64,000 bases of DNA. It comes from Bdellovibrionales bacterium RIFOXYA1_FULL_36_14. GTDB taxonomy: Bacteria; Bdellovibrionota; Bacteriovoracia; Bacteriovoracales; Bacteriovoracaceae. A program made the translations under genes and the position numbers. Location: contig MEPW01000054.1 in the NCBI GenBank assembly GCA_001769975.1, forward strand, positions 21,099 to 85,098, written 5' to 3'. This document shows positions 52,879 to 58,980 of this stretch, one piece after another (the first letter of the stretch is position 1; each line of letters starts with the position of its first letter). Under the pieces are notes generated by a model. It was not told the origin of the DNA. It did no database searches and saw only the letters and a list, made by a program, of their open reading frames with translations.

Positions 52879-52952
52879 ATTTAAATTTTAAATCACCAAA
52901 ATTTTAAACTGACTGGTTATTTTATTAATCGCTTGCCTTCACCTTAACTAAA

Positions 52953-55709
52953 TTAATTGTTAACTAGAATAACTTCCAGAGGGTTATCCGGTGTATTCGC
53001 TGAAAAAGTAATATTCTTGTTAGTATAATGGTCTATGACAATTGCGTGATTTGTGTGAATGACTTTCGTACCAGGGTTGGTGCCGGTTTTAGTGAAAGTA
53101 TATTTCACAATCTCTACTTTTATCCTCCCTAATGAGTCAGTCACACCATTAAATGATTTTCCATAGCTATCTGATATATCCACTACTTGATTGGCGATGA
53201 CCTGATGAGCACTATCTTTAATCACAAGATACATAGAATCACCTACGGAAAAATCGATATTTCCAGTGCCACTAACACCAAAATCATCAAAATTGGCCCC
53301 GCTTTCCAACTTGGTATCAATGAATAGATTTCCTATGCTATTCCAATTCCAGAAGCCGATTCGAATTGTTTTATAATTGGGGTTGTTTCCCAGTTTTACA
53401 AATTTAGAATTTCTAAATTGGTGATTACCTCCCATGCCATAACTATCCCCAAATTGAATGATACCGTAGTTTGATAGGAAGGTGTTGTCATTGTAGTATA
53501 TGGGTAGTTGGTCAGCATAACGCTCGCTCAAGCCCTGACCGACAACGCAAAATGCATCTTTGGTTTTGTCATCGTCGGCAAAGGTTTTCACAGTATTATT
53601 TCTAAATATAAGATTTTTTACATATGGATCTGAAAAAAATTGAACGCCCCTAATCGAGGTTGAACCTTCCCTTCCTCTAATTATAATGGCATTATTTTCA
53701 TATAGATTATTTTCGTATGGCTTAGTACCACCACCATATTGAGTTAAACGGATTCCGTTAACTGAGGCCATAGCACCATACTCACTTGAACGGTTATTTG
53801 GAGCATCTCCTTGTAAAAATATAAAATTATTTCTAACAACAATTCCATTTCTCCAGCTGATGCCATTAACATGATATCCAGTTCCAAATATTTTATTATC
53901 TCTGGTTAACATAGTTGGCTGAATCGCAAACGAGTTAGTGTCCCAACTATCAATATAAACTTCGTTATTATGCAGGACTGGTACAGTTTCGCTGATCATA
54001 ATCCCCTGGTGTCGGGCCCTTACAATCAGGTTGTTATTAACAGACTTGGAACCACTTACCCAAAGAGCTTTAACCCCTTGATGTCTATTATCTATACCGG
54101 TGCCTTTATCCTTTATAACATTATGATGAATAAAGTGATCGCCATACCTGGCCATAATTCCGCCAACACTATGACCACCATATTCAACTGTTATACCTGC
54201 AATTTCTGTTAGACCATCAACGTGAATTGGGTTGAATCCTAAACCGATGCTGCCTTGGCTGTTATGGGAACCTTGTTTAATTGTTCCATTTAGAATTTTT
54301 GATCCTTGTTTATTACCGCTTGAAAATATCCCAAAACTAGAGACGGTGCTATAGACGTAATCGTTCCACTGAGCATTTTCTACTAATGGCACTCCGTTAT
54401 CATACACCAAGGTATGCCCATTTAAATCGAGAGTTATATTATTGGCAGCAATTGTAAAGCCGCGAGTATTTGTAATAATATCTTGTGTGAGGAGATAAAT
54501 TGTATTTTCTTTATTTAATATATAAGGTGGATTACCTAAGCTTCCAGGAATCAACACAACGTTGCTCAGACTTTTGGTGGTGAATGTTTTATCACCAGAC
54601 ACGACTTTGATTCCTCTTTCATCGGTGGTCACAATTCGGTAATGATAAGTAGTATTTGCTTCTAAATTTTTTAAGTAGTGCAGATGTTGGAAAAAATTTC
54701 GATCGGGGTACTCCGTGCTATTGCCGTAACCAGTGGTTTTACCATATTCAATTTTAGAAAGAGCTGGTAAAGAAGTATGAAATGATATTGCAGCCGAATT
54801 GACTGAGATATGAGACCAACTTTGTGATTCGATTATCGTTAATGAGTTACCAAAAAAGGCATAATATTGCTCTTCACGCTCGGCCCTAAAATAGGTTTTT
54901 GCGAAATTATTAAATTTAGTGTATTCATCTTCAGTTCCTGTTATTAGAGCACACTGCGCAAAAGAGTAGTTATTAGGAGCCCAATTTCCACAAATGGCAT
55001 TTTCACAGATCATTTGCTGAGTTTCTGATTTACATGTAACGCCCGCATTTACCAGACTACTTTCATATCGCACTCTTGAAATCACACATTTTGGCTGAGT
55101 ATAGGTTCCAGACCAACTACCCAATTGTCCATTGGTACATAATCGATTTTGAATTTCTGATATACAATTTTGTCCTTCATTTACTGCGGCAGCTTGATAC
55201 ATAGTTCGTAGTTCAAAGGTTCCAGATGCAATAGTTCCGCAAGCGCTCGCCGCTTGTACGCTACAAGTTAAATATTGGTAAGTTCCACTCCATGCAGACC
55301 AAGTTCCGTTATTACAAGTTCTAATTTGAGTTTGAGAAATATTGGCGCAGCTTTGTCCGTAAACCACTGAACTGGCACTGTAAGCAATTCTTGATTGGGT
55401 ACCGTTATGAGGAGTCGATCCACAACTAAGTTTGGGTGCAATCGTTGGAGTTGGGGTAGGGGTGGAAGTTGGTACAACAGTAGGAAGAGGAGTTGGTACA
55501 ATAGTAGGCAGAGGAGTCGGAATAATAGTAGGCGAGGCAGTTGGAACAATTGACGGGGTTGGTGATGCGTCTACAACTGGTTGTTCAGTTACCACGCAAA
55601 GTCCATTTACGAGGACTTGATTTTCTTTACATTTTTTACTGGCCTCTGGAACACAGGAAGTCAGAAATAAAAAAATTATTAAATTTGCTATGATTGTAAA
55701 ATGTTTCAT
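52953..55709 (-). CDS. Secreted lipoprotein: PT-rich linker, three Cys modules, Fn3-like domain, right-handed beta-helix
   Basis: Lipobox 'FLTSC'; three ~50-aa Cys repeats; 'SLPALSKIEYGKTTGYG...YHYRIVTTDERG' Fn3-like; beta-helix rungs ('NNLIVRARHQGIMISETVPVLHNNEVYI'). Confidence 0.75.
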   Translation of the reverse strand: MKHFTIIANLIIFLFLTSCVPEASKKCKENQVLVNGLCVVTEQPVVDASPTPSIVPTASPTIIPTPLPTIVPTPLPTVVPTSTPTPTPTIAPKLSCGSTPHNGTQSRIAYSASSVVYGQSCANISQTQIRTCNNGTWSAWSGTYQYLTCSVQAASACGTIASGTFELRTMYQAAAVNEGQNCISEIQNRLCTNGQLGSWSGTYTQPKCVISRVRYESSLVNAGVTCKSETQQMICENAICGNWAPNNYSFAQCALITGTEDEYTKFNNFAKTYFRAEREEQYYAFFGNSLTIIESQSWSHISVNSAAISFHTSLPALSKIEYGKTTGYGNSTEYPDRNFFQHLHYLKNLEANTTYHYRIVTTDERGIKVVSGDKTFTTKSLSNVVLIPGSLGNPPYILNKENTIYLLTQDIITNTRGFTIAANNITLDLNGHTLVYDNGVPLVENAQWNDYVYSTVSSFGIFSSGNKQGSKILNGTIKQGSHNSQGSIGLGFNPIHVDGLTEIAGITVEYGGHSVGGIMARYGDHFIHHNVIKDKGTGIDNRHQGVKALWVSGSKSVNNNLIVRARHQGIMISETVPVLHNNEVYIDSWDTNSFAIQPTMLTRDNKIFGTGYHVNGISWRNGIVVRNNFIFLQGDAPNNRSSEYGAMASVNGIRLTQYGGGTKPYENNLYENNAIIIRGREGSTSIRGVQFFSDPYVKNLIFRNNTVKTFADDDKTKDAFCVVGQGLSERYADQLPIYYNDNTFLSNYGIIQFGDSYGMGGNHQFRNSKFVKLGNNPNYKTIRIGFWNWNSIGNLFIDTKLESGANFDDFGVSGTGNIDFSVGDSMYLVIKDSAHQVIANQVVDISDSYGKSFNGVTDSLGRIKVEIVKYTFTKTGTNPGTKVIHTNHAIVIDHYTNKNITFSANTPDNPLEVILVNN
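54972..55640. repeat. Long direct repeat, copy 1 (N-terminal cassette of the lipoprotein pair)
   Basis: Near-identical DNA to 57637..58250. Confidence 0.85.
55440..55570 (-). repeat. Pro-Thr linker tandem repeat (PTPLPT(I/V)V units)
   Basis: Repeated 'gtaggaagaggagttggtacaa'-type units encoding SPTPSIVPTASPTIIPTPLPTIVPTPLPTVVPTSTPTPTPT. Confidence 0.8.
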
Positions 55710-55770
55710 GTTGCCCTCTTATGTTAAAAATCTTAATCATAATTTTTTGATTCTGAAGCTTGAAGTCTAA

Positions 55771-58323
55771 TTATAATCCAGAAAGGATGTTACCAATAGC
55801 CTGTCTGGTTTCTAAAAAGTTAGTAGGGTTCATATTTAAATTCCAATAAGCATGATCAATATTCGAATTTGTAAAAGCATGATCCAAAACAGAAAAAGTA
55901 GCATTTTTCCCAACCTTGGCCTTAGCCATATGCACATATTCCCAGTCTTCTATGGCATCTCTTATATGTTTCATTCGGATGCTTTCAATAGGAATATCGT
56001 GAACTCCACCAATAATCGGGGTGCTTGTTGGAAGCGTTCTTCCAGCTCCGTTTGCAACGCCTGGATAAACTAATTGTCCATCACCATTTGAACCGAAATA
56101 CCAAAGGTTTTCGTATGGAGCACCGGTTGCATAATAATTATCTACCGTCGTACCCCAATAGATTGTCCCAGTTAGTTCATATTTTGCCCAAATAAAACCA
56201 GGAAATCTGTTGTATAAGGCTTTGGCGTCTGCCGTCCAATCTATTTGTCCTGAATATGCTGAACTTCCTGTAATCCAACATCCGTTATTGTCACAGGCAA
56301 GGTAACCCCACATCTCGTCGTTTGGGTAACCTGGGTATGTGTTGCGAGATATTTTCGTTCCTCCAGAGGAGCAAGTTCTATCCCATCCGGGACAAACTAG
56401 TGAATAAGAATTGGCGCTATAAAAACCATAATTTCCAAAGTCTTCCAATCCTTCACGTCTTTTGGAGTTTGCGTATACATTGCGAAAAGGTCCAAGCCCA
56501 CCAGTGTTGATCGCACTTGCGTCTTGTGCTTGATCAATTACGACATTGCAATCTGACATGGTGACTCCCCGCCAAGTTGAGGTTTTGTCACAGCGAGGTT
56601 CATCTTTAACACCTACAAAAAGATATTTCATGGGTTCCCACCCTTCTTCTGTAAATTTATCCCAGACATGCTGTAGATATTGTCTTGCGGCAGTTTCTTT
56701 GTCCACGATAGCAATATCAGTTCTAGTGGTTGAATCAGCCGGCCATTCAGCAGGAGATCTTTTAGTTGGCATCTTGCCTCCAGCATATGGCCCGGACACT
56801 ATAGCGGTTCCTGAATAAGTGTCTTTAACTATGGAGTACCATGGTTCCCACGTGTTTACAGTGAGTTTTTTTGTTGAATTATTCCATGGTAAGTAACTTG
56901 ATCCAACTAATGATTTACCACCGGTTGGGGCAATTCCCATTCGATGGTAGAGAAACATTTTCATATATGTTTTGGCAAGATCAGTTGCGATTGGTGTTCC
57001 ACTCCAGGCAGCGGATTGTCCAAAGCCGTGTCCATGTGTCATCATCGATTGTTCAAATACAAAGTGGGAATGAAATGGGGAAGTTGAAGGCAAGTTAAAA
57101 TTCCAAACAGTAACGCTAATATTACGAACAATAGGCGTTTTTCCCTTGGCAGTTACGGTTACTGTCCCGGTATATGTTCCCGCTACGGTGTTTACAGTAG
57201 TTCCGATGTCAACCCATACTCCTTGAACTTTTCCCGCCATAACGGCGAATGGAAAAGTATTACGGGTTTCTCCAAAATATCTATCAATTTTAGGTAATAA
57301 AGCATCAGGGTAGCTTCCAAGAGGATACTCAATTCTTGATTGATTTATTGTTTTTAAATAATGTTGTTTATATATAAAGATATTATTAATCGAATCATTG
57401 CCTTTAGTAAGAGGTGATATATTGACGTCTACTTCGGATAATGGTTCATTGCCAGAATATAACATCACCTGAAATGATTCAAATTCATTCTTAGCCATGT
57501 TTATTGAAAGATAGGTTTCACCGTTGGTTCCGTCTTCCCCGTCTTGTCTGTATTTTGTCAAAGTATTATCGAGCCAAACGTTGTAAGCGGTTTGCGTGGA
57601 TTGTTGAGGTGAACAAGTTGCATAAGTATAATAGTTAGGAGTCCAACTTCCACAGATGGCATTTTCGCAGATCATTTGTTGAGTTTCTGATTTACAAGTA
57701 ACGCCCGCATTTACCAGACTACTTTCATATCGCACTCTTGAAATCACACATTTTGGCTGAGTGTAGGTTCCAGACCAACTACCCAATTGTCCATTGGTGC
57801 ATAATCGATTTTGAATTTCTGATATACAATTTTGTCCTTCATTTATAGCAGCAGCTTGATACATAGTTCGTAACTCAAAGGCACCAGATGCAATAGTTCC
57901 GCAGGCGCTCGCTGATTGTACGCTACAAGTTAAATATTGATAGGTGCCACTCCATGCAGACCAAGTTCCGTTATTGCAAGTTCTAATTTGAGTTTGAGAA
58001 ATATTAGCGCAGCTTTGTCCGTAAACCACTGAACTGGCACTGTAAGCAATTCTTGATTGGGTACCGTTATGAGGAGTCGATCCACAACTAAGTTTGGGTG
58101 CAATAGTTGGAGTTGGGGTAGGGGTGGAAGTTGGTACAACAGTAGGAAGAGGAGTTGGAATAATTGTCGGGGTTGGTGATGCGGCCACTACTGGTTGTTC
58201 ATTTATCACGCAAAATCCATTTACCATGACTTGATTTTCTTTACATTTTTTATTGGTCTCTGGGACGCAAGCTGTAATAAGTAAAATAAAAAACAGCGAA
58301 ACAAAAATTAGTAAGCACCTCAC
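55771..58323 (-). CDS. Secreted lipoprotein: PT-rich linker, three Cys modules, DUF4091-type glycoside hydrolase-like domain
   Basis: Lipobox 'LLITAC'; same N-terminal cassette; 'AKNEFESFQVMLYSG', 'GTYTGTVTVTAKGKTPIVRNISVTVWNFNLP', C-terminal 'MKHIRDAIEDWEYVHMA' as in DUF4091. GTG at 58323 preferred over track TTG 58365. Confidence 0.75.
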   Translation of the reverse strand: MRCLLIFVSLFFILLITACVPETNKKCKENQVMVNGFCVINEQPVVAASPTPTIIPTPLPTVVPTSTPTPTPTIAPKLSCGSTPHNGTQSRIAYSASSVVYGQSCANISQTQIRTCNNGTWSAWSGTYQYLTCSVQSASACGTIASGAFELRTMYQAAAINEGQNCISEIQNRLCTNGQLGSWSGTYTQPKCVISRVRYESSLVNAGVTCKSETQQMICENAICGSWTPNYYTYATCSPQQSTQTAYNVWLDNTLTKYRQDGEDGTNGETYLSINMAKNEFESFQVMLYSGNEPLSEVDVNISPLTKGNDSINNIFIYKQHYLKTINQSRIEYPLGSYPDALLPKIDRYFGETRNTFPFAVMAGKVQGVWVDIGTTVNTVAGTYTGTVTVTAKGKTPIVRNISVTVWNFNLPSTSPFHSHFVFEQSMMTHGHGFGQSAAWSGTPIATDLAKTYMKMFLYHRMGIAPTGGKSLVGSSYLPWNNSTKKLTVNTWEPWYSIVKDTYSGTAIVSGPYAGGKMPTKRSPAEWPADSTTRTDIAIVDKETAARQYLQHVWDKFTEEGWEPMKYLFVGVKDEPRCDKTSTWRGVTMSDCNVVIDQAQDASAINTGGLGPFRNVYANSKRREGLEDFGNYGFYSANSYSLVCPGWDRTCSSGGTKISRNTYPGYPNDEMWGYLACDNNGCWITGSSAYSGQIDWTADAKALYNRFPGFIWAKYELTGTIYWGTTVDNYYATGAPYENLWYFGSNGDGQLVYPGVANGAGRTLPTSTPIIGGVHDIPIESIRMKHIRDAIEDWEYVHMAKAKVGKNATFSVLDHAFTNSNIDHAYWNLNMNPTNFLETRQAIGNILSGL
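57637..58250. repeat. Long direct repeat, copy 2
   Basis: Near-identical DNA to 54972..55640. Confidence 0.85.
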
Positions 58324-58479
58324 GTATAACTCCAAGTATATGAAAAGCGTTTTTTTTGGAATCAAAGTCTAATTATATCCCATTTATGAATATAAGGGAC
58401 ATATTGGATGTAACTAATTGATTTTAATAGTAATATTCAGATATACATGTACTTTTTAGTGCCCAAAAAAGTAGGAAAT

Positions 58480-58980
58480 TTAAAATAAAAATGAGGTGTG
58501 TGGATGAATTAGGAAAAGATAGACCCCTCCGGCCATAAGTCCACTGACTAGATCATCAAGAATTATTCCTATACCGTGTTTGACTTTTTTATCAAAGTAG
58601 CTTGCCGGCCAAATTTTTATAATGTCAAAAAAACGAAATAAAATAAAAACTATTATGATATGGAGAAAACTGGTTTTAGAAATAAAAGGGTAGGTGATCA
58701 TTAGTCCTAAAAATTCGTCAATCACAATCCATGAGGGATCATGCGTTTCATATTTTTTTTGGGCTTGGTGGGAAAAATAAATGGCAATGATTGATATAAA
58801 AATAAACGCAGGAATAAACTCATAAAAACTAAGATTAAGTTTTAATAATAAATATAAGAAAGGGATGGTGGCGATTGAAGCTAGCGTGCCGGGTGCGTAT
58901 GGGGAAAAACCAATTCCCAGCAGGGATAAAAACAAAACTTCAGGGGAAGTAATTTTGGGTCGTCGCATTATTTGCCGCAC
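58480..58980 (-). CDS. pgpA: Phosphatidylglycerophosphatase A
   Basis: 'GIGFSPYAPGTLASIATIP', 'DPSWIVIDEFLGLMI', 'HGIGIILDDLVSGLMAG'. Confidence 0.93.
   Translation of the reverse strand: MRQIMRRPKITSPEVLFLSLLGIGFSPYAPGTLASIATIPFLYLLLKLNLSFYEFIPAFIFISIIAIYFSHQAQKKYETHDPSWIVIDEFLGLMITYPFISKTSFLHIIIVFILFRFFDIIKIWPASYFDKKVKHGIGIILDDLVSGLMAGGVYLFLIHPHTSFLF

Follow-up and report, generated by a model that had tools for sequence, protein, structure and literature searches.

Candidate modular lipoproteins with a conserved anchor-stalk cassette and exchanged C-terminal domains in a genus of Bdellovibrionota

Bacteroidota Sus-type systems place lipid-anchored glycosidases on the outer membrane, and their genes lie in polysaccharide utilization loci. 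In Bdellovibrio bacteriovorus, the MAT fiber proteins Bd2133 and Bd1334 are 75% identical and then end in unrelated tips, and glycan recognition has been described for one tip (PMC10769870). The GH123/DUF4091 beta-N-acetylgalactosaminidases use a DE motif, in which the Asp stabilizes the acetamido group and the Glu is the acid-base; 94% of DUF4091 sequences retain the motif (PMC11087588). Here, we describe two adjacent genes, A and B, in a stretch of 64,000 nucleotides (nt) from Bdellovibrionales bacterium RIFOXYA1_FULL_36_14 (contig MEPW01000054.1; the window). They encode putative lipoproteins in which a very similar N-terminal cassette is joined to unrelated C-terminal regions, called effectors below.

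Like the MAT fibers (PMC10769870), which belong to the same phylum, these proteins combine a conserved N-terminal part with exchanged C-terminal tips and a relationship to phage tails. However, MATs are trimeric beta-helix fibers, whereas the proteins described here have a lipobox anchor and Cys modules, with an enzyme function predicted for at least one effector. The Pfam hits of A and B included no S74-type family. Tip swapping on a conserved stalk is known in the phylum from the MAT fibers, and the realization seen here is, by analogy, a new variant of that chimeric (MAT-like) principle. The likeness to the Sus type lies in glycan-acting enzymes that are lipid anchored on the outer membrane (here a prediction); the difference is that a nearly identical stalk is reused on scattered single or paired genes and not in a polysaccharide utilization locus. 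No Sus-like transporter genes were noticed by eye beside the cassette genes looked at. As for the GH123/DUF4091 enzymes (PMC11087588), the best solved relative of B is an oligosaccharide-releasing enzyme (PDB 8k2f), but B is only remotely identical to characterized enzymes, its effector sits on a predicted lipoprotein stalk, and the closest relative found is phage borne.

The best overall explanation, to which we assign a probability of about 0.66, is that A and B represent a set of modular outer-membrane lipoproteins, confined to the genus, with a fixed anchor-stalk part and exchangeable glycan-acting or glycan-binding effectors. In such proteins, the anchor (lipobox CVPEAxKKC..QVLVNG.CV) would be followed by a Pro/Thr-rich linker, a stalk of at least three Cys-rich beta modules, and the C-terminal effector. 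With Val or Ile at position +2, the lipid anchor would attach the protein to the outer membrane, and linker and stalk would hold the effector at a distance from this membrane. New effectors would be acquired laterally and others lost, with phage tail or phage-borne genes as one likely exchange partner; gene conversion would keep the anchor-stalk parts alike within a genome and would also provide homology for new fusions. The substrate of B would be a polysaccharide or glycoprotein, belonging to prey, to neighbors, or to the cell itself, from which it would trim beta-linked N-acetylgalactosamine. Effector exchange on a fixed stalk may here have been caught under way: the borders of the tract can be placed, the insertion site is empty in the congener, and one effector is present both on a stalk and free of it. 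The locus also links phage-borne glycan-acting genes to bacterial lipoproteins, and it provides a module family, lacking a Pfam or PDB model, that could be used for finding secreted effectors across Bdellovibrionota.

Cassette genes and exchange of their C termini

Two genomes of the genus were compared, namely, the window's genome (2.06 Mb, 58 contigs, 86% complete) and that of a congener, Bdellovibrionales bacterium RIFOXYC1_FULL_37_79, both of which are draft assemblies. A and B lie on the same strand with a gap of 61 nt. Their N termini consist of a lipobox (LTSC-VPE in A and ITAC-VPE in B), a short KKC..QVLVNG.CV segment, a Pro/Thr linker, and three Cys modules, with four Cys residues each in modules 1 and 2 and four, placed differently, in module 3. 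The listed open reading frame (ORF) of B begins at a TTG codon (position 58365); the GTG at 58323 is the better and probable start.

Each genome has six cassette genes. Those of the window's genome are A, B, C40a, C40b, C18, and C38; C40a and C40b form a second tandem pair, and C40a, truncated by the contig start, has only the last 19 cassette residues. Those of the congener are C28, C36 (likewise truncated by the contig start), C32, C59, C9, and C31 (with a divergent anchor). An all-against-all comparison yielded ten unrelated C termini on these 12 genes, and the effector makes up most of the length of each cassette protein within the genus. Only two pairs of C termini are common to both genomes, C40a/C28 (86% over 450 amino acids [aa]) and C18/C36 (68% over 92 aa). 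Furthermore, the C terminus of C38 (an Ig-like He_PIG domain and a probable beta-helix) is also encoded without a cassette in L011:3779-5323, where it follows immediately on a signal peptide (37% over 490 aa). The first-pass annotation, made from the letters of the window, had proposed a cassette reused with exchangeable C-terminal domains; our search of the genome and its relatives agrees with it, since the cassette extends beyond A and B to six genes per genome and its module is found on further domains in the phylum.

Two contigs, that of C40 in the window's genome and that of C36 in the congener, start inside a cassette (L010:1 and L050:1), and copies may be missing or truncated by assembly. 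The same block of SDR, SRPBCC-like, and glyoxalase-like genes adjoins a cassette gene in both genomes (L010:4114-5865 and L052:3468-5201), on opposite sides and with unrelated effectors. In the congener, L054:5856-7403 encodes four modules with a divergent anchor and a 260-aa C terminus of no assigned family that has a Cys-rich end.

Identity tract between A and B and the recA-pgpA site

The N-terminal parts of A and B match over 280 aa (BLASTP E 7e-131), and the 160-aa three-module parts are 94% identical in protein sequence. DNA identity in 60-nt windows is 87 to 100% for aa 21 to 236, 75% in the last 17 cassette residues, and 48% in the signal peptide. The best low-divergence segment corresponds to aa 21 to 246 of A, with 6.2% differences inside versus 49% outside, and its score was reached by none of 300 codon permutations. 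Silent sites show this contrast as well: 23.5 of 137.5 sites differ inside the tract (about 17%; aa 19 to 51 and 75 to 241), and 14.5 of 19.4 (about 75%) differ outside it, at the signal peptide and the module-3 end (Fisher P = 1.6e-7, counts rounded for the test). The conversion tract suspected at 54972-55640 and 57637-58250 by the first-pass annotation was recovered almost to the base (54972-55649 in A). Near identity of the N-terminal cassette, as claimed there, holds for aa 21 to 246 of A but not for the signal peptide, and in the linker B has a 48-nt (16-aa) gap. The C termini are indeed unrelated, but the divergence after MICENAICG(N/S)W is less abrupt than had been stated: beyond ICG(N/S)W, weak A/B homology with 33% DNA differences runs on to the last module Cys (aa 253 in A and aa 251 in B) and ends there.

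In trees of cassette DNA, the copies pair within genomes, namely, A with B (support of 100), C28 with C9 (99), and C36 with C32 (100), and the effectors of these pairs are unrelated. Conversely, C18 and C36 have orthologous effectors, and their cassettes are not paired. By identity, the C40b cassette is closest to those of A and B (78 to 79%). In all three within-genome pairs, identity drops sharply no later than the end of module 3 (reached by none of 300 permutations in each case); for C36/C32, identity is 88% in modules 1 and 2 versus 52% in module 3. A single whole-gene duplication does not explain both borders of the A/B tract, which may have arisen by gene conversion or by transfer of the anchor-stalk part through recombination. 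Judged from the sequences, gene conversion appears to fit these borders better than plain tandem duplication does. Within the C38 gene, modules 1 and 2 (L012:6896-7165) have an 87-nt exact repeat in common, which may be a sign of recent homogenization inside one gene.

The A/B locus is an insertion between recA and pgpA. In the congener, the site is empty of cassette genes: pgpA and recA are neighbors with about 0.9 kb between them, and the flanks have 87 to 88% DNA identity. In three more distant relatives, the pgpA-recA gap is about 0.2 to 0.3 kb. Loss in the other lineages is formally possible and needs more steps. Because the interval of the congener is filled by an unrelated, secreted-looking ORF of 170 aa (L161:5911-6423), it may be an insertion spot.

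Effectors, their phage relatives, and the Cys module

The C terminus of B is predicted to be a GH123-type beta-N-acetylgalactosaminidase. Two GH123 N-terminal domains score above the Pfam cutoffs (PF22680, 30.9 bits with a cutoff of 27; PF19543, 27.8 bits with a cutoff of 22), and the best match in the PDB, ahead of others, is the beta-N-acetylgalactosaminidase 8k2f (E 1.2e-20). GH123-type enzymes in the PDB match both the N-terminal and the C-terminal part of the effector. D588-E589 of B is aligned with the DEP of the phage relative described below; the WDEP of more distant relatives was paired with it by motif, the automatic alignment being shifted. Together with the GH123 domains and 8k2f, this motif accords with the DUF4091-type hydrolase region named at first pass. 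For A, an Fn3-like domain and a beta-helix had been named; the former is weakly supported (PF16656, below the curated cutoff), and the latter is suggested by inspection alone, with no Pfam match. Comparison of the A, C40a, and C40b effectors with solved structures gave nothing convincing. No ortholog of the A or B effector was found in the family genomes searched, and other families of the phylum gave partial matches of 28 to 42% identity.

Two IMG/VR contigs (36.9 and 68.4 kb) encode the closest relative found for the B effector (with the search for bacterial relatives confined to the phylum), a protein of 756 aa whose start resembles a signal peptide. Identity is 64% in the main block of 529 aa and 57% in the first 92 aa, and an endolysin-type gene lies nearby. 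The signal-peptide-like start of this phage GH123 copy would also fit a bacterial gene taken up by a phage. A plasmid search with the B effector gave no match. The C40a effector matches phrog_34846 (E 3e-37), mycobacteriophage proteins, one of them annotated as a minor tail protein, and a protein of 759 aa whose contig also encodes a major head protein. For the A, C40b, C38, C59, and C9 effectors, no phage or viral relative was found, not every effector having been tried in every collection.

The anchor segment is restricted to this genus and to cassette genes, with nine clear matches, apart from two marginal matches elsewhere. The lipobox takes the forms LTSC, ITAC, ITSC, LVSC, LISC, and LGAC (read from the sequence), and its Cys is invariant in the nine anchors. 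Position +2 after this Cys is Val or Ile and never Asp. By the Escherichia coli rule, a +2 residue other than Asp fits outer-membrane sorting. The single module was found in 14 of 129 family genomes (an order search gave the same number) and in 47 of 369 phylum genomes (E 1e-6), the weaker of these phylum matches being of a related FNGQT-AHG type. Its partners in the phylum include a pectate-lyase-like domain (PDB 9buj, E 2.5e-36), BNR repeats (below the cutoff), DUF1592/1588 cytochrome proteins, astacin proteases, an alpha-galactosidase, DUF4214, and a TSP1 domain. A weak module relative lies on an Allochromatium plasmid; no cassette was found in viral contigs. The module has no family match in Pfam or NCBIfam, the few hits in cassette regions being at chance level, and literature searches for the cassette found nothing.

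An AlphaFold2 model of the cassette built from 21 aligned rows (the window and related loci) predicts mainly beta modules in a row (pLDDT of 95, pTM of 0.63); the model from a single sequence was poor (pLDDT of 51). A Foldseek search with the former gave no match (best E of 0.72 in the PDB and 0.92 among viral models), small tandem modules being hard for Foldseek. A new fold of the Cys module is a lead, not proof. The WSxWSG motif suggested a thrombospondin type 1 repeat (TSR), which was ruled out by the absence of a Pfam hit (E 1) and of any TSR among the Foldseek PDB matches. TSRs and our module are both small tandem Cys modules with WxxW and a conserved Arg, but the module has neither a Pfam TSP1 match nor a structural match in the PDB. 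A TSP1 domain does stand beside a module relative in L113:1-1971 (minus strand) and in L114, as recognized by Pfam in L113 and by eye in L114; the C-terminal region of L113 resembles a heparinase or alginate lyase.

Weighing of the explanations

Ordinary tandem duplication of a whole gene, after which one C terminus was replaced or diverged past recognition, would require no special system. The adjacency of A and B on one strand, the 13-bp repeat upstream of both, and the second tandem pair C40a/C40b are what such an event would leave, but at silent sites the signal peptide and the module-3 end approach saturation, and the stretch between them differs far less. Because the effectors have no detectable similarity, divergence alone is insufficient, and the ten further cassette genes with other C termini largely refute this explanation, which we consider improbable. 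Alternatively, the modules could be a lectin-like, glycan-binding array that forms the conserved functional unit, with accessory C termini. This is rather unlikely: such an array would suit the unvarying aromatic and glycine residues of the module (WSxWSGTY), the tandem runs of ten or more modules, and the existence of proteins with almost nothing but modules (L117 and L121), but no fold or sequence match to a known lectin or carbohydrate-binding module was found, and most of each cassette protein in the genus is effector. Very improbable is an assembly artifact, in which reads were misjoined at repeated cassettes so that effectors only seem swapped. The assembly is a draft of the metagenome type, and two contigs (C40 and, in the congener, C36) start inside a cassette; however, exact matches reach at most 98 nt between A and B (9 to 51 nt for the other cassette copies), the A/B core differs at 22 sites, and two orthologous fusions (C40a/C28 and C18/C36) were seen again in a genome assembled independently.

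Several observations weigh against the preferred reading of modular outer-membrane lipoproteins. Their lipoprotein status is a prediction made by reading the lipobox, and their location is likewise a prediction. No family could be assigned to the A, C40b, C59, and C31 effectors, so that "glycan-acting" may not apply to all, and in B, PF13320 (the former DUF4091) reaches 14 bits versus a cutoff of 23.1 (E 0.033). The grouping of C40b with A and B in the tree has weak support (41). With two genomes in the genus, it is hard to distinguish conversion from a fresh duplication followed by effector replacement in every case. Finally, GC content at third codon positions is 0.31 to 0.36 in the effectors, close to the window background of 0.283 (standard deviation, 0.027), and composition therefore gives no clear sign of recent transfer. 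A bolder form of the preferred reading, possible but doubtful, is a lipoprotein "socket" system, in which a standard anchor joined to a Cys-module fold of a new type, both homogenized by gene conversion, would repeatedly capture phage-borne glycan-acting domains (the GH123 enzyme and the tail protein domain) and so provide changeable surface enzymes against the polysaccharides of prey or neighbors.

Table 1. Features of the A/B locus (window positions)
Feature	Coordinates	Strand	Basis or remark
Gene A, putative cassette lipoprotein, 918 aa, with Fn3-like and repeat (probably beta-helix) C terminus	52953..55709	-	
Gene B, putative cassette lipoprotein with predicted GH123 C terminus	55771..58365	-	864 aa as listed; 850 aa from GTG 58323
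A, lipobox cysteine (LTSC-VPE)	55653..55655	-	Sequence and alignment of nine anchors
A, high-identity tract common with B (aa 21-246)	54972..55649	-	Segment scan and synonymous contrast
A, three-module Cys cassette (aa 94-253)	54951..55430	-	Sequence comparison; AlphaFold2 pLDDT 95
A, candidate Fn3-like/purple acid phosphatase N-type domain (aa 298-378)	54576..54818	-	Pfam E 5.5e-4, below cutoff
A, effector region (aa 254-918)	52956..54950	-	No ortholog in congener or family
B, three-module Cys cassette (aa 92-251)	57613..58092	-	Sequence comparison
B, counterpart of high-identity tract	57634..58263	-	Synonymous contrast and segment scan
B, predicted GH123-type effector (aa 252-864)	55774..57612	-	Pfam, PDB, phage relative
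B, predicted catalytic DE motif, D588-E589 (KDEP)	56599..56604	-	Aligned DEP in phage relative
13-bp exact repeat TATAATTAGACTT upstream of A	55763..55775	-	Overlaps B stop
13-bp exact repeat TATAATTAGACTT upstream of B	58365..58377	-	
Insertion relative to congener, between recA and pgpA	52886..58518	Not applicable	

The 13-bp repeat TATAATTAGACTT brackets gene B; with one mismatch allowed, it has two matches in the window, both exact, versus 0.39 expected. Matches in a promoter scan were no commoner than chance. Either a -10 element common to both genes or a scar of duplication could account for the repeat.
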